Below, one piece after another: positions 5,594 to 25,552 of a stretch of DNA of 64,000 bases. Source of the DNA: Clostridiales bacterium. Lineage in GTDB: Bacteria; Bacillota; Clostridia; Saccharofermentanales; Saccharofermentanaceae. Location: positions 62,001-126,000 of the forward strand of contig JAFZKB010000029.1 of the NCBI GenBank assembly GCA_017551865.1, given 5' to 3'. The translations under genes and the position numbers were made by a program. The first letter of the stretch is position 1. Every line of letters begins with the position of its first letter. Under the pieces are notes generated by a model. The model did not search any database. It was not told the DNA's origin and was given only the letters and a program-made list of their open reading frames with translations.

Positions 5594-6712
5594 ATGAGAA
5601 AGAAAGACCGGAAGATCGTTCTTGAGGACGGGAGCTTTTACGAAGGCTACGGATTTGGGTCGAACACCGAGAGAGTCTGCGAGATCGTATTCAACACTTC
5701 GATGGTAGGCTATCAGGAGATCCTTTCAGACCCATCCTACACAGACCAGATGGTGGTCATGACTTATCCGCTGATCGGTAACTACGGCATCACGGACGAT
5801 GACTTCGAGACCAAAAACCCGAGCATCGGCGGTCTGATCGTCGGCGACTATAACGATATGCCGAGTAACTTCCGGTACACCAAGACGCTTTCCGAGGAGA
5901 TGGAGGAGAACAACATCCCCGGCATCTACGGCGTCGATACCCGCCAGATTACAAGAAGCATCAGAGATTTAGGTTCCCGAAGAGTGATCATGACCTCGAT
6001 CGATACACCGACTGAAGTGGCCCTTGCCAAGATCACGGTAACTCCGGTGCCGCACGACCAGGTCTCCCGTGTCTCCTGTAAGAAGCGCTGGTATTCAAGA
6101 ACCCCGAACCCGCGCTATAACGTTGTCGCGATCGACTGCGGCATCAAGCTCAACATTATAAGAAAGCTCAATTCCTATGGCTGCAACGTAACCGTCGTGC
6201 CTTATGATACGACTCCGGAGGAGATCGAATTCATGAAGCCGGACGGCATTTTCTTAAGTAACGGCCCGGGAGACCCGGAGGATGTGACGCCTGTTATCAA
6301 CACGGTGAAGGCCCTTGCCAGCAAGTTCCCGATCTTCGGTATCTGCCTCGGGCACCAGATGATCTCGCTGGCCTACGGCGCAAAGACCTATAAGCTTAAG
6401 TTCGGTCACCGTGGCGGTAACCACCCGGTCAAGAACTTAGAGACAGGAAAGATCGAGATCACTTCCCAGAACCACAGTTACGCGGTGGATCTCGACAGCC
6501 TGAAGAATACGAAGCTTACAGCAACGCACATCAATCTTCTCGACAACACCGCAGAGGGTGTCGAGTGCAAAGAAGATATGGTCTTCTCCGTGCAGTATCA
6601 CCCGGAGAGTGCACCGGGTCCGCAGGACAGCACCTATCTTTTCGAGAAGTTTGTCTCGATCATGAAGGATTACTGTGAGAAGAAAGAGAGCGAGGTGAAC
6701 GTCCATGCCTAA
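5594..6712 (+). CDS. carA: Carbamoyl-phosphate synthase small subunit (glutaminase)
   Basis: At 372 residues this has the normal CarA length. The N-terminal CarA domain is followed by a class I glutamine amidotransferase domain with the nucleophile Cys251 in GICLGHQ and the catalytic His/Glu in [10 protein letters not shown]. It hydrolyses glutamine and channels ammonia to CarB for carbamoyl phosphate, the precursor of pyrimidines and arginine. The GGAGGG ribosome binding site lies directly after the leader terminator. It overlaps carB by 8 bp, so translation is coupled. Confidence 0.97.
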
Positions 6713-9700
6713 GAGAACCGACATTCATAAAGTACTCGTGATCGGCTCCGGTCCGATCGTTATCGGTCAGGCGGCAGAGTTCGACTATGCCGGCACCCAG
6801 GCCTGCCTGGCGCTGAAAGAAGAAGGATATGAAGTTATCCTCGCTAATAGTAACCCGGCGACCATCATGACAGATACTTCCATTGCGGATAAAGTTTACA
6901 TGGAGCCGCTGACACTGCAGTTCCTGGCACGTATCTGCCGTCTCGAGCGTCCGGACGCCATCGTTCCGGGTATCGGCGGCCAGACGGGCTTGAACCTTGC
7001 GATGCAGCTGGCCAAGAAGGGCGTACTCGAAGAGTGTGAAATCGAACTTCTCGGAACCGATGCCAAGAGTATCGAATGCGCCGAGGACAGAGAGCTCTTT
7101 AAGGAACTCTGCGAGAAGATCGGCGAGCCGGTCGTTCCTTCCCAGATCACCTACAGCATCGAAGAAGCTCTGGAAGCTGCTGAAAACATCGGTTATCCGG
7201 TCATTCTCCGTCCGGCATTTACGCTCGGCGGTACGGGCGGCGGCTTTGCCAACGATCCGGAAGAACTCCGCACCATGATGAAGAACGCCCTTGCGCTTTC
7301 TCCGGTACATCAGGTACTTGTAGAGAAGAGTATCAAGGGCTATAAGGAGATCGAATACGAAGTCATCCGTGATGCCAACGATACGGCCATCACGGTATGT
7401 AATATGGAAAACCTCGATCCGGTCGGTATCCACACCGGTGACTCCATTGTAGTTGCGCCTTCCCAGACACTAACAAATAAGGAGTATCACATGCTCCGTG
7501 ACAGTGCCTTAAAGATCATCCGCGCACTCGATGTAAAGGGCGGATGTAACTGCCAGTTCGCACTGGATCCGCATTCCTTCAAGTACTACGTTATCGAGGT
7601 CAACCCGCGTGTTTCGAGATCTTCCGCTCTGGCATCTAAGGCCAGCGGTTATCCGATTGCAAGAGTTTCCGCGAAGATCGCCGTCGGCATGAACCTCGAC
7701 GAGATCCAGTTGGCCAATACCCCGGCGTGCTTTGAACCGGCCCTCGACTATGTCGTTACGAAGATGCCGAGATTCCCGTTCGATAAGTTCCCGGCCGCGA
7801 TGAATAAGCTTTCCACGCAGATGAAGGCAACGGGTGAGGTCATGAGTGTCGGCCGTACCTTCGAAGAGAGCCTTCTTAAGGCGATCCGTTCTCTCGAGGA
7901 CAGCAAGAACCACATCCACATGCCGAAGTTCGACTCCGAGCATATGAGTGTCGATGATCTTCTCGACTACATCAAGGAAGGTACCGACGACCGTATCTAC
8001 GCGATCTCGCAGCTGATGTGGCTCGGCGTCGACCACTCCCGTATCTGTAACATCACCGGCATCGACATGTTCTTCCTCGACAAGATCAAGAAGATCGTTG
8101 ATTTCGAGCGTGAGATGGAAGCCAATGTCGGATCTCTTCCACACCTCATCGAAGCCAAGCGAATGGGCTTCTCTGATTCTTATGTCGCCGAGCTCTGGAA
8201 GATAACAGAAGACGAAGTATACAAGATGCGTAAAGAGAACAAGATCGCTCCGATCTATAAAATGATCGATACCTGCGCATCCGAGTTCGAAAGCTATGTT
8301 CCGTATTTCTACTCGACCTACGCTACAGAGAACGAGTCGATCGTCTCTGACAGAAAGAAAGTCATCGTACTCGGTTCCGGTCCGATCCGTATCGGCCAGG
8401 GCGTTGAGTTCGACTATTCAACAGTACATGCGATCCGCACGATCCGTGAGATGGGCTACGAGGCCATCGTTATCAACAATAACCCGGAGACGGTATCCAC
8501 TGACTATACCACGGCGGATAAGCTGTACTTCGAGCCTTTGACGACAGAAGATGTCATGAACATCATCGACCTAGAAAACCCGATGGGCGTTATCGTTACC
8601 CTCGGTGGACAGACGGCCGTCAACCTTGCGGATTCGCTGACCAAGCGTGGTGTTAAGATCATCGGCACCGATTCCGAAGCAATCGAAAAGGCCGAGGACA
8701 GAGATGCTTTTGACGCGGTCATCAAATCCCTTGAGATCCCGAACCCGAAGGGTGAAGCTGTTACCGATATTCCGACCGGCATTAAAGTCGCCGAGAAGAT
8801 CGGCTATCCGGTACTCGTCCGTCCTTCCTTCGTACTGGGCGGCCGTGCCATGGAGATCGTTGCAAACGAGACCATGCTCGTGAAGTACTTAAAGAACGCC
8901 GTTGAAGTCGACGAAGATAAGCCGGTACTGATCGATAAGTACTTAGTCGGTAAAGAAGTCGAGGTCGATGCGATCTGCGACGGCAAAGAAGTCTTTATCC
9001 CGGGAATCATGGAACTTGTAGAGCGTACAGGTGTTCACAGCGGTGACAGCACCAGCGTATATCCGCCGTTCTCCATTTCCGATAAGGTCAAGGAGACCAT
9101 CTGCGATTACACCACACGTCTGGGCCTCGGCATCGGCATCGTGGGTCTTTTCAATATCCAGTTCATCGTCGATAAGGACGACAGCGTCTATGTTATCGAG
9201 GTCAACCCGCGTGCTTCGAGATCCGTTCCGTTCCTTTCCAAGTCCACAGACCAGAATCTCGTTACGATCGCGACCCGCGTTATGCTCGGACAGTCCCTGA
9301 AAGAGCAGGGCATCACCCGCCTGACTCCGCCGGAAACGACCGACCGCTGGTATGTTAAGGCACCGGCCTTCAGTTTCCAAAAACTCGACGGCATGGATGC
9401 GTATCTGTCGCCTGAGATGAAGTCCACCGGTGAGGCCATCGGCTACGACAAGAGCCTGAACCGTGCTTTCTTTAAGGCGCTGCAGGCATCCGGCATTAAG
9501 ATGAAGGACTATGGTACCGTTATCGTTACCCTGGCAGATGAAGATAAGGAAGAGGCACTGCCGCTGATCAAGCGTTTCTACGAACTCGGCTTCAATATCG
9601 AGGCCACGATCGGTACCGCCAACTTCCTTAAAAACCACGGCATCAGGACACGTGTCCGCGGCAAGCTCAGTGAAGGCAGCACCGAGATCCTCGATTCCAT

Positions 9701-9893
9701 CCGTGCCGGTTATGTCAGCTACATCATCAACACCCGTGCGATCCTCTCGGGTGTCCATTACGAGGACGGTGTGGCGATCCGCCGTTGCGCGATCCAGAAC
9801 GGTGTCACGATCTTCACATCTCTGGATACCGTTAAGATTCTGCTGGATGTTCTTGAGGAGACGATCCCGGGCATCTCGACGATCAACGCGTAA
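6705..9893 (+). CDS. carB: Carbamoyl-phosphate synthase large subunit
   Basis: The 1062-residue length is typical. Two homologous ATP-grasp halves are visible: the first begins with [17 protein letters not shown] and the second, near residue 555, with [16 protein letters not shown]. Each is followed by the carboxyphosphate or carbamate phosphorylation core with EVNPR motifs. The C-terminal ~140 residues form the MGS-like allosteric domain. It makes carbamoyl phosphate from bicarbonate, ammonia supplied by CarA and two ATP. A strong terminator follows, so the unit is carAB only; no other pyr or arg gene is adjacent. Confidence 0.97.
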
Positions 9894-9912
9894 TTTACTT
9901 TGTAGACCGATC

Positions 9913-9974
9913 CGGTTCCTGCTGCGGGTCTCGGGGCTGTGCCCTTGGGATCTTTAGCGGGAGCCGTTTTTTTT
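9913..9974 (+). terminator. Terminator of carAB
   Basis: An 11-bp outer stem (CGGTTCCTGCT / AGCGGGAGCCG, with wobbles) encloses a second hairpin (TCTCGGGG paired with the CCC-TTGGGA side) and is followed by eight T residues. It should stop rightward transcription before the palindrome array. Confidence 0.85.
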
Positions 9975-10025
9975 GATTCGGATCTGGTCTATTGTTTCCC
10001 TGTATCTGTTCGCTTTGGTGTGAAT

Positions 10026-10386
10026 CATGGGTAACTGGCTTTACCTTGTTTTCCCATGCCTTTCTTCTGCTTGCGTAGAAAGGAAATCAAGGGGAAGTAC
10101 GATTCATAAGACTTCCCATGCCATTTTCAGACCTGATGAAGATGCAGAAATCATGGGGGAATTGTGTTTCGTGAGATTCCCATGCCCCAAAAGGGGAAAA
10201 ACTTCATGGGGATTTCAATAATTTATAAATCCCCATGCCTGAGTGGTCATGGGGAATGACTAATATTTCAAAGCCCCATGCTTTTTGTCTCAAAAACAGG
10301 CATGGGAAATCGCGCTTTTTCCCAATACCCATGCTTCGTGTCTCAAAACCAGTCATGGGATTCTGCTGATATTGAAATTCCCCATT
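10026..10386. repeat. Array of seven phased 33-bp palindromes
   Basis: Seven units each begin with CATGGG and end with CCCATG, exactly 33 bp long: 10026-10058, 10088-10120, 10152-10184, 10205-10237, 10248-10280, 10301-10333 and 10354-10386. Twelve of fourteen half-sites are exact; unit 2 starts CAAGGG and unit 7 ends CCCATT. The 21-bp interiors differ in sequence, though several extend the inverted repeat (unit 4 has an 11-bp perfect arm). The spacers are 29, 31, 20, 10, 20 and 20 bp, close to whole helical turns; the last two share TGTCTCAAAA. This looks like a cooperative DNA-binding site array. It fills most of a 687-bp gap without genes. Confidence 0.85.
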
Positions 10387-10423
10387 AACCTAAAACCAAG
10401 ACGAGATAAATGGCCCTGCTTCA

Positions 10424-10474
10424 AGAAAAAAGATTACCGCCCGGGATGCGGAATATCGCGCCCCGGGCGGTAAT
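10424..10474 (-). terminator. Terminator of the 10581-12308 lipoprotein gene
   Basis: A perfect 13-bp stem (ATTACCGCCCGGG at 10433-10445 with CCCGGGCGGTAAT at 10462-10474) is followed on the minus strand by a T run (complement of the A run at 10425-10431). It lies about 110 bp past the lipoprotein stop codon and just before the palindrome array. Confidence 0.85.
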
Positions 10475-10580
10475 TGGATTTTCATTAAAGCGATAGCGGC
10501 CGAATCTGTCATCTCGGAATCCAGCCTGTCGGATCCGTCACTCCGGATCCTCGCGGCCATCAGCTACTAGCTATTTGATC
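10475..10580. other. 3' untranslated stretch of the lipoprotein gene
   Basis: This stretch between the lipoprotein stop codon and its terminator contains a small hairpin (GGATCCG / CGGATCC near 10530-10550) and two GCGGCC copies. I see no gene in it. Confidence 0.4.
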
Positions 10581-12308
10581 TTATCCGGCGTAGAAGATGC
10601 CCTGGAAGAGATCATTCTGCTCAATGCCGTTATACTTGAGACTCCAGTCGGCTTCGCCCGAAGCCGGATCAACTGTGAGCTGGAAGTAGAAGTTCTTGGA
10701 TGCATCAGCATCAAGGTACTCGCAGAGAAGTGTTCTGCTCTCAAGATCGATGCCGCGAACGACGAATACAGCGTTTGCAGGAAGAGTAGCCTTACCGTCC
10801 GGTGCACCCTTGCTGTTGAACTTGTCTACAGAAAGCTCCTGCTTCGTAGCGGCGATCGTGTATCTGCCGCCCAGATTCTGTGTCTTCTGCGGGAATCCGT
10901 TATTGCCCTTGACGGAAACATATTCGATTACATAACCGGTGCCCATGATGTCGGTGGAAGAAACGATCGTAAAGTTTTCCGGATCGAAGAAGAAGCCGTC
11001 GATATGAATGCTCGGCAGGCTATTATTGAAGTAATTCTGGAACTTAAAGGAAGAACCGTCAAATTTGAAAACGGCAACAGTTGGAAATGCGTCTTCCGAG
11101 TACATATCGGCATAAGCATAGAAACCGTCGTCAGTCTTCAGCAGATAGATCTTATCCAGCATCAGACCGGAGATCTCGAGCCCATCTTCCGGAATGCTCT
11201 CGACCTTGTCATTAAAAGCGATACCAAAGTTGATAAGGCAGCCGTATTCATCTGTTTCGGAAGTGGCGATGATCTTATCCATCTTGCCGTCACCGTCGAC
11301 ATCCCAGATGATGTGATCATATACATCAGACTGGAGAGCATAGGTTTCCGGAGTAGTTCCGAAAAGGCTCATGTCGATGTAATCACCGGCATAGCAGGCC
11401 GGGATCTTGAACATATTAAATTCATAATCATCTGTATAGATAATGAAGAGACCGTCATAGGTGATAAGGAAGGGAACTTCAGCGTTCGGATCACTGATCT
11501 TACCTGCCAGATACTCCACTTCCTGCATTAAGTGCGGGTTCTCCTGCATAGACTTTGCACCATCGAGGTATTCAGCGAAGAAATTGGCAAATCCGGGTCT
11601 GTCGGAAACGATGTCGTTCAGGTTGTATTCCATCGAGTCGCCGGAACGGTAGTTCCATACTTTATAAGTAGTTTTATCGGAACTGGATGCGAGATCATAA
11701 GTGTTCTGATATGTTATGAAGGAGAATACATCGCTGTCAGAACGGACGACATATGTATGGCTCGTTGCAGCGAACGAACCGGTTGCGGAGCCGTCAACAT
11801 AGCTCGGGAGCTTCTGATCGTAGAGATCATCGTAATTGGTGTTCAAAGCCGGGTAGATGCCGTCGAGGGAATTCCAAAGCTGAGAGTAGTTGTCCTCGTC
11901 CTTGATCGTAAGAACATCCACGTCCTTGGTTACCGAATAGATCTTGTTGTCCTCGGTGGAGGCAACAAAGCCGTAAGCGCGGTATTCTTTCGTCATGATG
12001 TAATCCAGTTTCTTCAGATCCGAGCGGATGGCGAAATCCGGAGAGATGGTATAGTCAGAAAGGCCGGAGGAACCGGACTTGGAAGGCTTTGTGGATTCTT
12101 CTGTTTCAGAAGAGGTAGGTTCTTCAGTTTCTTCTGTCTCAGTTTCTGTTTCTTCTGTATCTGATTCCGGCGGAAGAGTCTCTTCGGTTTCGGTTTCAGA
12201 TGTTTTCTTGGTTTTTGTCTTTTTGGTTGTTTCTTCACTCTTCTTCGAGCATCCCGCAAGGGAGATGACCATAGTAAGCGTGAGAAGGATTGATACTAAT
12301 CGTTTCAT
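10581..12308 (-). CDS. Secreted lipoprotein with Thr/Glu-rich linker
   Basis: A 575-residue protein with a lipoprotein signal (MKRLVSILLT, lipobox SLAGC with Cys at residue 20). Residues about 21-85 form a Thr/Glu/Lys linker that probably spans the cell wall. The rest is a large extracellular region with one Asp-rich calcium-loop-like segment, DVDGDGKMDK, as seen in EF-hand-like or FG-GAP-like repeats. No enzyme motif was recognised. A good ribosome binding site (AAGGAGGAAGT) precedes the ATG. It is monocistronic, with its own terminator at 10424. Confidence 0.8.
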   Translation of the reverse strand: MKRLVSILLTLTMVISLAGCSKKSEETTKKTKTKKTSETETEETLPPESDTEETETETEETEEPTSSETEESTKPSKSGSSGLSDYTISPDFAIRSDLKKLDYIMTKEYRAYGFVASTEDNKIYSVTKDVDVLTIKDEDNYSQLWNSLDGIYPALNTNYDDLYDQKLPSYVDGSATGSFAATSHTYVVRSDSDVFSFITYQNTYDLASSSDKTTYKVWNYRSGDSMEYNLNDIVSDRPGFANFFAEYLDGAKSMQENPHLMQEVEYLAGKISDPNAEVPFLITYDGLFIIYTDDYEFNMFKIPACYAGDYIDMSLFGTTPETYALQSDVYDHIIWDVDGDGKMDKIIATSETDEYGCLINFGIAFNDKVESIPEDGLEISGLMLDKIYLLKTDDGFYAYADMYSEDAFPTVAVFKFDGSSFKFQNYFNNSLPSIHIDGFFFDPENFTIVSSTDIMGTGYVIEYVSVKGNNGFPQKTQNLGGRYTIAATKQELSVDKFNSKGAPDGKATLPANAVFVVRGIDLESRTLLCEYLDADASKNFYFQLTVDPASGEADWSLKYNGIEQNDLFQGIFYAG

Positions 12309-21960: not shown

Positions 21961-23997
21961 ATGAGAAAAACAATATCTGCGGTTATACTGACCGCAGCCG
22001 TAGCCGTGTCCGCTGTGGCACTTGCAAAACTTCCGGCACTTCGTGCAGACGAATCTAAAGTATACGTTGAGAACTCCTATGCCGTGCCATCGGGAGATGT
22101 AGCGATCAATTCTACAAACTTCCCGGATGCAAATTTCAGAACTTATGTATCTCAGTTCGATAAAGACAACAGCGGCGGATTGAGTACAAGTGAGATCAGT
22201 GCAGTGACCGCGATCGACTGCAGTTCCAATTCTATATCTGATTTGACAGGAATCTCCTATTTTACCGCGCTGAAGACCCTGAACTGTAAAGACAACCAGA
22301 TATCCAAATTAAATCTGCGTTCGAATACCGCACTTCAAACTGTATCCTGCAGCAATAACAGACTGACATCACTAAATGTGAATGGCCTTACCAGGCTCGG
22401 AATATTGGAGTGCAGAAACAACCAGCTTTCCTCCATCGATGTAGAAAGGAATACGGCGCTTTACAATTTTGACTGCACTTCCAATAAACTAACCTCGCTC
22501 AATGTGAAAAAGAATACGGAACTCAAATATCTGTATTGCAGCTTCAACGAAATAACGGAACTGGATGTAAGCAAAAATCCAAGCCTGAGATACCTGTATT
22601 GCTACAAAACGGGAATCAGCCAACTGGATGTAGAGAACTGCCAGTACTTGCACAACATTATAAGGAATATACCATTTAGTGTCCGAAACTCCTACAAATT
22701 CGTTAAAGGAACACTGAATGATCTGCCTATCGAACTTTACGTAAATCCGGATTGTAATGTATATCCGGTAGCGATCAACGAGACAAACTTCCCGGATAAC
22801 AATTACAGAATTTTAGTTACACAATTTGATATAAGTGGCAATGATTCAGAATTAAGCCTGCTTGAGATCCAGGCTGTAAAAGAAATGCATTGCTGGGGAG
22901 AGATATATAGTCTTCAGGGTATCGAGTATTTCACGTCACTTACTAATCTGCATTGTTACAAATGCAAACTTACGGCTCTTGATGTAAGCAAGAATACTGT
23001 TCTAGAGTTTATTGATTGTAGCGACAACCAACTTACAACCCTTGATTTAAGCAAGAATACGAAACTCGAAATATTGTCGTGCTACGACAATCAACTAACA
23101 TCCCTTGATGTAAGCAAGAATACTGCTCTAAGGGAGTTATACTGTTACAACAATCAACTAACAACTCTTGATGTAAGCGAAACCACAGAACTTGAGTGGT
23201 TGAATTGTGGTTGTAATGAACTGACATATTTGGACTTAAGTAAGAATACGGAACTTCAGAGGTTACGATGTGAAGACAATCAACTGACATCTCTGGATAT
23301 TCATCTTTGCCCAAAGCTTGAGTCATTAGTGAAGGCGAGTGAAAGGCGAGAATTCGAAGATCATTCTTATTTTTCCTCTTCTACTGCCCTTTTGTATTTT
23401 GACAAAAATGTCACCCTCATCACCTCAGACGGAGCTTTGGTGGGTACCATAATCAAGCTGAAAGCCGTGTCTGCCGGAAGGAACAAGGTCAAACTTACCT
23501 GGGATCCGATAAGTGAAGCAGATGGATATCTTGTTTATGGACAAAAGAACGGAAAATATGCTTATGTCGGCATGACCACACAGGGTACGACATTTACAGA
23601 TACCAAGGCACTGGATAATGACTGGAATTATTACTGGGTCTTTGCCTATGCCAAAGACAGCCATGCCAAAATGATCCCCGGCGGCTGCCTGAAGTATGTG
23701 TATGCCAAGGGCGTCTGTCTTGCGGTAACGAACCTGAAAGCGTCTTCCGGAACCGGATATGTGAAGCTTTCGTGGACAGCCTCTGCCGGAGCGGACGGTT
23801 ATCTCGTCTATGGTATCCGTCCGGGTGGAGCATCTTATGGCTATATCGGCATGACGACCCAGGGCACGACTTTTACTGATACAAAAGCATCGAAAGCGGA
23901 CTACACGTTCTACTGGGTGTTCCCGTATCACAAGGATGCAAGCGGGAACATGATCGTCGGCGGAACTGCTAAGTACACTTACGGAAAAGCAAGGTAG
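21961..23997 (+). CDS. Secreted LRR protein with two FN3-like modules
   Basis: A 678-residue protein with a signal peptide (MRKTISAVILTAAVAVSAVA). An EF-hand-like loop, DKDNSGGLS, lies near residue 70. Two blocks of ~21-residue leucine-rich repeats of the bacterial cysteine type (pattern LxCxxNxLTxLDVSKNT) run over residues about 80-230 and 295-450, each preceded by an INxTNFPD segment. The C terminus has two fibronectin-III-like modules (LTWDPISEADGYLVY and LSWTASAGADGYLVY). No sortase motif or TM anchor is visible, so it is released or held non-covalently. It is likely an adhesion or polymer-binding surface protein. Confidence 0.88.
   Translation: MRKTISAVILTAAVAVSAVALAKLPALRADESKVYVENSYAVPSGDVAINSTNFPDANFRTYVSQFDKDNSGGLSTSEISAVTAIDCSSNSISDLTGISYFTALKTLNCKDNQISKLNLRSNTALQTVSCSNNRLTSLNVNGLTRLGILECRNNQLSSIDVERNTALYNFDCTSNKLTSLNVKKNTELKYLYCSFNEITELDVSKNPSLRYLYCYKTGISQLDVENCQYLHNIIRNIPFSVRNSYKFVKGTLNDLPIELYVNPDCNVYPVAINETNFPDNNYRILVTQFDISGNDSELSLLEIQAVKEMHCWGEIYSLQGIEYFTSLTNLHCYKCKLTALDVSKNTVLEFIDCSDNQLTTLDLSKNTKLEILSCYDNQLTSLDVSKNTALRELYCYNNQLTTLDVSETTELEWLNCGCNELTYLDLSKNTELQRLRCEDNQLTSLDIHLCPKLESLVKASERREFEDHSYFSSSTALLYFDKNVTLITSDGALVGTIIKLKAVSAGRNKVKLTWDPISEADGYLVYGQKNGKYAYVGMTTQGTTFTDTKALDNDWNYYWVFAYAKDSHAKMIPGGCLKYVYAKGVCLAVTNLKASSGTGYVKLSWTASAGADGYLVYGIRPGGASYGYIGMTTQGTTFTDTKASKADYTFYWVFPYHKDASGNMIVGGTAKYTYGKAR
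22975..23310 (+). repeat. 63-bp coding repeats of the LRR block
   Basis: Five consecutive 63-bp units encode 21-residue LRRs; the core CTTGATGTAAGCAAGAATAC recurs at 63-bp intervals (about 22979, 23042, 23105, 23168, 23231) with few changes. The low divergence points to recent expansion. Confidence 0.75.
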
Positions 23998-24042
23998 AAG
24001 AGATCTTATTTGTGCTGCCAATAAACTGAGCTGCGAATGAAA

Positions 24043-24071
24043 TTGACATGCGCCTGAAACGTCCATATACT
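24043..24071 (+). promoter_or_regulatory. Promoter of the second LRR-FN3 gene
   Basis: TTGACA (24043-24048), 17-bp spacer, TATACT (24066-24071); nearly the same sequence and spacing as the promoter at 21810. Confidence 0.8.
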
Positions 24072-24106
24072 CGTATTGGGGATAGATGGAATGGAAGAGG
24101 TACGTT

Positions 24107-25552
24107 ATGAAAAAGAAAGCATTATCGGCTATAGTTTTTGCTACTTTGATTGTTATTTCCGAAGTTGCGTTTACAGGATTTTCGATCTTTCGTGAAGAGG
24201 TGGCCGAGACCATCACACTTCAGAAATGTGCGGTGCCTGCTGGAGAAGTTGCGCTCAACGAAACAAACTTTCCGGATGCGAATTTCTTAAGCTTTGTATC
24301 GAAGTACGATAAAGACAAAAGCGGCGGGTTAAGTGCAAGTGAGATCAAATCTGTGACTGAGATCGGCTGTAGCGACATGAACATATCTGATCTCAAAGGC
24401 ATCGAATATTTCACATCTCTTAGATGGTTAGATTGCACTTTCAACCAGCTCACTTCGCTTGATGTGCGTAGTAACACGCAGCTTATCACTTTGTATTGTG
24501 CATTTAACCAGCTGACTTTACTTGATGTAAGTAAGAATCTCTCTCTTAAGTCTTTGAACTGCGATTGGAACGCATTATCTTCGCTTGATGTGAGCAGAAA
24601 CCTCTCTCTTGAAGGGTTGACGTGCAGTTTCAACGATCTGACTACACTTAATGTAAGCAAAAATACAGAACTTGAGTGGTTGAATTGTGGTTGTAATGAA
24701 CTCACAAATTTGGACTTAAGTAAGAACTCGGAACTTGACGGTCTGTCTTGCTACCGGAATCAATTGACTTCGCTGGATGTGACAAGAAACAAAAAACTTA
24801 CTTACCTTGCTTGTGAAGGAAATCAGATAAAGAAACTCGATATCCATCTTTGCCCGAAGCTTCTTGAACTAATCACTAAGGAAACAAGGAAGGAAGAAAA
24901 GACGGATTTCTTTGATTCCTACTATTACGGATCTTCCCAAGATGATGATTATTTCGGGTACGATAAAAGTGTTACTCTTATCACAAAAGGTCCTTCTGTA
25001 GGAAAAGTGACCGGCCTCAAAGCTGTTTCTGCCGGAAGGAATAAAGTGAAACTGACCTGGAATGCCGTCGATGGTGCAGTAGGGTATCTTGTTTATGCCC
25101 AGAAGGATAAGAAGTACGGGTATGTCGGCATGACTACTCAGGGCACGACTTTTACGGATACGAAAGCTCTGGATACAGACTATAACTACTATTGGGTATT
25201 TGCTTATGTAAAAGATATCGATGGCAGCATGGTGGCCGGCGGTTGTGAGAAGTATGTGTATGCCAAGGGCGTCTGCCTGGCGGTAACGAACCTGAAAGCG
25301 TCTTCCGGAACCGGCTATGTGAAGCTTTCGTGGACAGCCTCCGCCGGAGCGGACGGATACCTTATCTATGGCATCCGTCCGGGAGCGGCATATGGCTATA
25401 TCGGCATGACGACCCAGGGCACGACTTTTACTGATACAAAAGCATCGAAAGCGGACTACACATTCTACTGGGTGTTCCCGTATCACAAGGATGCAAGCGG
25501 GAACATGATCGTCGGCGGAACTGCCAAGTATACTTACGGAAAAGCAAGGTAG
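24107..25552 (+). CDS. Secreted LRR protein with two FN3-like modules (paralogue)
   Basis: Start at 24107 after GGAAGAGG; the ATG at 24086 is 7 codons upstream without a site. It has a signal peptide (MKKKALSAIVFATLIVISEV), the EF-hand-like DKDKSGGLS, one LRR block (about residues 90-260) and the two FN3-like modules of its neighbour. It is 481 residues because it lacks the second LRR block. The last ~300 bp are nearly identical to the 3' end of the gene at 21961, including silent sites, as is a stretch of about 40 bp in the LRR block (near 24665 and 23187), so the pair is recent or undergoing gene conversion. Confidence 0.88.
   Translation: MKKKALSAIVFATLIVISEVAFTGFSIFREEVAETITLQKCAVPAGEVALNETNFPDANFLSFVSKYDKDKSGGLSASEIKSVTEIGCSDMNISDLKGIEYFTSLRWLDCTFNQLTSLDVRSNTQLITLYCAFNQLTLLDVSKNLSLKSLNCDWNALSSLDVSRNLSLEGLTCSFNDLTTLNVSKNTELEWLNCGCNELTNLDLSKNSELDGLSCYRNQLTSLDVTRNKKLTYLACEGNQIKKLDIHLCPKLLELITKETRKEEKTDFFDSYYYGSSQDDDYFGYDKSVTLITKGPSVGKVTGLKAVSAGRNKVKLTWNAVDGAVGYLVYAQKDKKYGYVGMTTQGTTFTDTKALDTDYNYYWVFAYVKDIDGSMVAGGCEKYVYAKGVCLAVTNLKASSGTGYVKLSWTASAGADGYLIYGIRPGAAYGYIGMTTQGTTFTDTKASKADYTFYWVFPYHKDASGNMIVGGTAKYTYGKAR

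Follow-up and report, generated by a model that had tools for sequence, protein, structure and literature searches.

What are the seven 33-bp palindromes that stand in a row in the gap behind carB, within a 64,000-nucleotide stretch of Clostridiales DNA (the window), and what could read them? A first-pass annotation of the window described them as helically phased CATGGG-N21-CCCATG units in a transcription-free gap and proposed that they bind a protein cooperatively, as an operator, a partition or chromosome-organising site, or a decoy.

Anatomy and surroundings of the array

All seven units are present where they had been described (Table 1), with 12 of 14 half-sites exact and a single mismatch in each of two units. 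The spacers measure 29, 31, 20, 10, 20 and 20 bp and the start-to-start steps 62, 64, 53, 43, 53 and 53 bp, as annotated, and neighbouring half-sites alternate in orientation at distances of about 1.5, 2.5 or 3.5 helical turns. The palindromes are far above chance: in 3000 dinucleotide-preserving shuffles of the 431-bp region, units with at most one mismatch averaged 0.005 and never exceeded 1, whereas the real sequence has 7.

Hairpins flank the array on both sides, in agreement with the annotation: the GC-rich hairpin with T8 behind carB ends near 9968, and the one at 10433-10474 has arms 89% complementary, flanked by an A-run and a T-run. The description as a transcription-free gap holds for the window array and fails as a general rule, since across the genus arrays occur between convergent and codirectional genes and, in a few cases, between divergent ones. 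Most surveyed arrays adjoin at least one gene 3' end, several of them directly past a terminator, and no shared DNA-binding neighbour recurs among the genes that flank arrays. Several congeners (L069, L070, L074-L076, L078) share a terminator-like hairpin behind carB, whose inner sequence is similar from one to the next (CGTCGCTGGTCCTCG...CTGCGGAATCGCTCC). Elsewhere in the window, at 21961-25552, two adjacent secreted-type proteins with leucine-rich-like repeats of about 21 residues and near-identical C-terminal regions are a recent tandem gene duplication.

Table 1. Positions of the array, its neighbours and related loci (window coordinates unless a locus is named)
Feature	Position	Strand	Remarks
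carB, left neighbour	6705..9893	+	CPSase_L_D2, CPSase_L_D3, MGS
Hairpin and T8 behind carB	9913..9974	+	probable terminator, consensus match only
Palindrome unit 1	10026..10058	none	CATGGG-N21-CCCATG, exact
Palindrome unit 2	10088..10120	none	one mismatch (CAAGGG)
Palindrome unit 3	10152..10184	none	exact
Palindrome unit 4	10205..10237		exact; last one left of centre; 11-bp perfect arms
Central spacer CCTGAGTGGT	10238..10247		10 bp; only short spacer; polarity flip = dyad centre
Palindrome unit 5	10248..10280	none	exact
Palindrome unit 6	10301..10333	none	exact
Palindrome unit 7	10354..10386	none	one mismatch (CCCATT at 10381)
GC-rich hairpin, + strand A-run	10424..10474	-	probable terminator of minus-strand gene
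Lipoprotein-like gene SKK, right neighbour	10581..12308	-	matches no Pfam family
Class-2 loci (TGCCGTA-N23-TACGGCA)	L021 16126-16420; L243-L249; L268 1748-2043		
Insertion-sequence sites	L017 8984-9111; L040, L118, L253, L256, L259-L262		G021 contig ends
CATGGG/CCCATG tandem arrays elsewhere	L030 1-336; L035 4284-5173; L036 2587-2937; L048 1107-1510; L044 83-430		

The array family in the genome and its sister species

A genome-wide search for CATGGG-N21-CCCATG places the window array among many. The exact unit occurs 48 times in the window's genome (G000; 2.73 Mb, 35 contigs), and a reversed control pattern gave 0 exact copies. Arrays of this type are found on contigs C9, C10, C12, C22, C24 (two), C28 (the window), C29, C30, C31, C32 and C35. 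G000 also contains a second class, TGCCGTA-N23-TACGGCA, with 67 exact units; the congener G021, whose coordinates and sequences match the MAG Clostridia bacterium Tb.RUG.474, has 41 exact units of this class. Seven of the eight class-2 loci inspected, and the class-2 array of L021, have six units at steps of 51-52, the pattern being exactly 52, 51, 52, 51, 52 in five arrays; an additional orthologous class-2 array was found in the comparison of G000 with G021. Counted as lower bounds that include partly degraded arrays, the genome holds at least 12 CATGGG arrays and at least 22 arrays of both classes together.

Among the 59 genomes searched, the exact CATGGG unit is present only in G000 and G021, where the arrays occupy the same gaps. 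Viral contigs gave only scattered single matches and no comparable arrays, phage records gave no match to the array, and a literature search of partial coverage gave no matching description of phased or tandem palindrome arrays; as far as could be found, an array family whose half-sites change between species is previously unreported. Tandem arrays with CATGGG/CCCATG arms also occur in Oceanobacillus (52 bp), Lachnospiraceae cow7.4 (53 bp) and an uncultured MAG (52 bp), and may be either related or convergent to the window family. Exact-pattern matches in Micromonospora, Sarcina and RUG12259 belong to other structures and were set aside.

Helical phasing and dyad symmetry

The whole-turn spacing proposed for the window is confirmed, and it is stronger genome-wide, where the steps fall into discrete classes 10-11 bp apart: the 64 steps of 11 CATGGG arrays in G000 measure 43 (11), 52-54 (47) or 62-65 bp (6), with none between. 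Exactly one 43-bp step, with its 10-bp spacer, is present in each of these 11 arrays (11 of 12 overall); the twelfth, in L021, has a 127-bp step (12 turns) and no short step. Spacers left of the short one tend to xC...TT and those on its right to AA...GG (23/3 against 2/16; Fisher p 3e-7). The single 10-bp spacer and this flip of polarity together make each such array one large dyad.

The same periodicity is found with 14 further half-site sets, whose steps are about 52-54, 61-63 or 73-74 bp and which include species and motifs from a search that fixed no period. Over the 15 sets the step values concentrate at multiples of the 10.5-bp helical turn (resultant 0.89; 0 of 20,000 uniform draws), as measured against a simple null and with step values that are not all independent.

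Half-site turnover across the genus

Between G000 and G021 the half-sites are under selective constraint. They diverge by 2.3%, against 14.4% for interiors and 14.9% for spacers (p < 1e-27), with 6.8% for flanks, in a comparison where 3 of the 14 array pairs are non-orthologous and where taking as half-sites whatever lay close to the consensus in one genome or the other somewhat favours a low value for them. One of the length changes between the two species, at 52 bp, is roughly the size of a full unit.

In other species the places and the geometry recur with different half-sites. The gap behind carB, which the annotation had singled out for comparison, holds an array of period 61 in G022. The ftsH gap has a CATGGG array in the window's genome, GATAAGATC half-sites at step 53 in G012, TATGTCT at step 52 in G015, GGTCCTA changing to GAGTCCTA at about 53 in G010, TTACGGGTGAA at 63 in G003 and GTCAGA at 62 in G013. 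Before gltB the half-sites are CATGGG in the window's genome, GATAAG in G003 (step 53, about 12 units) and CAGATA in G013 (step 53). G019 has CAYGAG-N21-CTCRTG arrays, and in G012 55 units of ATAAGATC-N22-GATCTTAT form eight arrays whose steps are always 53. A further G012 class, with GTTCTA arms and period 62, lies at L142 10191-10377.

Four arrays (steps 52, 63 and 63/74/73) were found in a 387-kb sample of G003 and one (step 74) in a 332-kb sample from two species of another genus, and codon-block shuffles gave none. Units of CGACGGACCAAA...TTTGGTCCGTCG at 74-bp steps, seven turns, stand at L224 14121-14375 in a species from another genus of the family. The presence of arrays at orthologous gaps is patchy within the genus. 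Geometry and often chromosomal places are thus kept between species while recognition sequences differ, as if protein and sites had changed together.

Inversion and insertion sequences

Gene order around the arrays differs between the two sister species. The window's genome has carB -> array <- SKK and ftsH -> array -> CRS (a lipoprotein gene). G021 has carB -> array -> CRS, and its SKK orthologue faces ftsH across an array (SKK -> array <- ftsH), as it also does in G012. The window array's left half scores highest with the G021 carB array (249 against 156) and its right half with the G021 SKK array (213 against 132). The swapped orders and the half-matches amount to a chromosomal inversion whose two breakpoints, in comparison with G021, both lie within arrays (window 9893-10581 against L042 and L117), and the window array is itself a recombination junction.

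At eight G021 contig ends, arrays contain an insertion sequence with the ends GGTCAAGTCCATATTTGTGTGTAAATTC and AGTTATGTCCGTATAATGGTGTAAATTC, which we take to be IS256-like. Three pairs of these sites show 8-bp duplications (AGTTGAAG, AATAGCCA and TTCATACG), and the arrays look like insertion hotspots. As sites of inversion and of recurrent insertion, arrays shape genome structure in these rumen-associated Clostridia.

Alternative explanations

The strongest competitor of a protein-binding platform is a purely selfish repeat: cassettes of phased palindromes, similar to REPIN or BIME, would be mobilised by a putative enzyme that reads the half-sites, and the phasing would serve a synaptic complex. 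Such an origin is possible, but we consider it rather unlikely as the whole explanation. It agrees with several half-site classes per genome, with species-specific classes, with intergenic landing sites behind terminators and with whole-array paralogy. The identity of class-2 interiors reaches 0.92 between units of the same index and is about 0.51 between different indices, so the related class-2 arrays derive from a single six-unit array by copying. Whole-array copying means that the arrays once spread like repeats, which keeps a host function at the level of a proposal. The annotation had counted random spacing together with a dispersed mobile repeat as evidence against its reading; the motif is dispersed and whole arrays are duplicated, but the spacing is not random and the sister species carry their arrays at the same places.

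This last point weighs against a purely selfish repeat, because orthologous arrays keep their half-sites while interiors drift, whereas dead copies should decay evenly. Some arrays of the two species are broken by contig ends, and one is down to two units in G000 (L250 against L251). The arrays compared hold the same positions in both, and this applies also to one selected as a candidate recent insertion, which an empty-site test found present and orthologous in the two species. Neither the target-site duplications and empty sites of a transposon or insertion sequence nor consistent ends beyond the array were found. Also against it, the Y1 transposase of the RAYT family (PF01797) is absent from G021 (98% complete, with the same arrays) and from G012 (28 exact units); G000 has one copy.

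A local operator or regulator site of carAB or adjacent genes is improbable because the same array type stands beside unrelated genes, also behind convergent ones. Some arrays do lie close upstream of genes, as in L014, where the distance is about 45 bp from both divergent starts; against this, no promoter-like site was found in 9850-10620, and the inversion changed the neighbours while the arrays stayed.

There is only a very slight chance that the array is a structured non-coding RNA or an RNA-processing element of tandem hairpins. The folding energy of the window array (z -3.85) fits such an RNA, as does the concerted change of arms in a G012 sub-array, in L138, where five ATAAGTTC/GAACTTAT-type units are followed by seven GATC-type units and arms change together from GATC to GTTC/GAAC (z 3.6), and, judged by eye, in a G010 array; a change in protein specificity also explains the G012 case. 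Interiors, in contrast, show no covariation or anti-covary: complementarity of mirror pairs falls below that of shuffled partners (pooled z -2.8 for CATGGG and -3.0 for G012; -0.7 for class 2). This speaks against hairpins in RNA, or cruciforms, being the structure under selection, and it is the main ground on which the hairpin reading was rejected. Moreover, the minimum-energy fold joins arms of different units and does not form the seven units, Rfam covariance models gave no match to the window array up to E = 1, whole-turn spacing is not needed by an RNA, and probable terminators stand on both sides.

Neutral minisatellites, in which palindromes and period would be by-products of slippage, are hardly credible: some arrays are near-identical tandem repeats (0.94 autocorrelation in G003 behind ftsH), but in most the half-sites and phase persist despite divergence of interiors and spacers, steps change by whole turns, each array has one centre with a polarity flip, and the half-site and interior divergence between G000 and G021 disfavours slippage.

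A proposed binding platform

A cooperative DNA-binding platform best accounts for the combination of dyad symmetry, interiors that do not covary, and selection that keeps half-sites and phase at fixed chromosomal positions. On balance, we incline to the view that the array is a DNA-level multi-site platform for a putative dimeric DNA-binding protein, most likely with an architectural role. One dimer would occupy each 33-bp palindrome, whose inverted half-sites are separated by 27 bp (some 2.5 turns of the helix), and units placed every 4, 5 or 6 whole turns would let bound dimers face the same way and touch. The 10-bp centre would be the symmetry point of the array, from which assembly could proceed outward in both directions. 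About 22 or more such platforms, of two half-site classes, would stand at fixed places around the chromosome, maintained by selection on half-sites and phase, where they may form filaments, loops or bridges in intergenic DNA. Between species the specificity of the protein would change and the sites would change along. Against this view stand the patchy presence of arrays at orthologous gaps and the occurrence of two half-site classes in a single genome, which would call for either two proteins or a single one of relaxed specificity. The cooperative binding proposed by the annotation survives in this form: a putative DNA-binding protein and whole-turn phasing fit all the evidence and a chromosome-organising type of site is one candidate, while its operator option is unlikely.

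A broader and more doubtful proposal is a system of chromosome architecture, or of insulators, whose geometry is fixed (dimer sites every 5-7 turns, six-unit symmetric platforms, conserved intergenic places) and whose sequence code is rewritten genome-wide between congeners as a rapidly changing binding protein coevolves with all its sites. If a single protein family reads the arrays, the genus would provide matched variants of protein and site, a natural series in which to follow the genome-wide coevolution of DNA specificity.

Comparison with known systems

REP and BIME elements form a short hairpin, mostly with a loop of 2-5 nt, and carry GTAG or CGTC at its foot (PMC3733652). The arrays resemble REP, BIME and REPIN elements (PMC3733652, PMC3116915) in being short intergenic palindromes that are clustered, that occur in several species-specific classes per genome and that keep their positions in close relatives. 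They differ in an interior of about 21-23 nt, in whole-turn steps and in six-unit cassettes. Like REP and BIME, they are palindromic, extragenic and clustered repeats, but the interior of the window units is 21 bp and the consensus of the unit flanks contains neither GTAG nor CGTC. Mobilisation by RAYT and membership in REP are excluded by the transposase missing from two array-bearing species, the loop length and the tags. Nor is the window array a CRISPR array, because only the 6-bp arms are conserved, interior and spacer both vary, and the spacers are 10-31 bp long.

Neisserial intergenic mosaic elements contain dRS3, a 20-bp palindrome with an 8-bp interior, and are likewise intergenic arrays of palindromes separated by other sequence; we know of no description of helical phasing or half-site turnover for dRS3. 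The BirA operator bioO, and others similar to it, has two inverted half-sites about 25 bp apart that are bound by one dimer, which is a precedent for the geometry of an array unit. BioO, however, is a single operator at one promoter, whereas the arrays are repeated around the genome. The matS, parS and Noc sites are dispersed palindromes bound by dimers, but they are short, occur mostly singly and keep their sequence from one related species to another, whereas here the sites form arrays and their sequence turns over within the genus. Structural and regulatory sites are normally known by a conserved sequence; here the architecture appears to be conserved while the recognised sequence turns over across the arrays of a genome, so that annotation based on sequence misses them.
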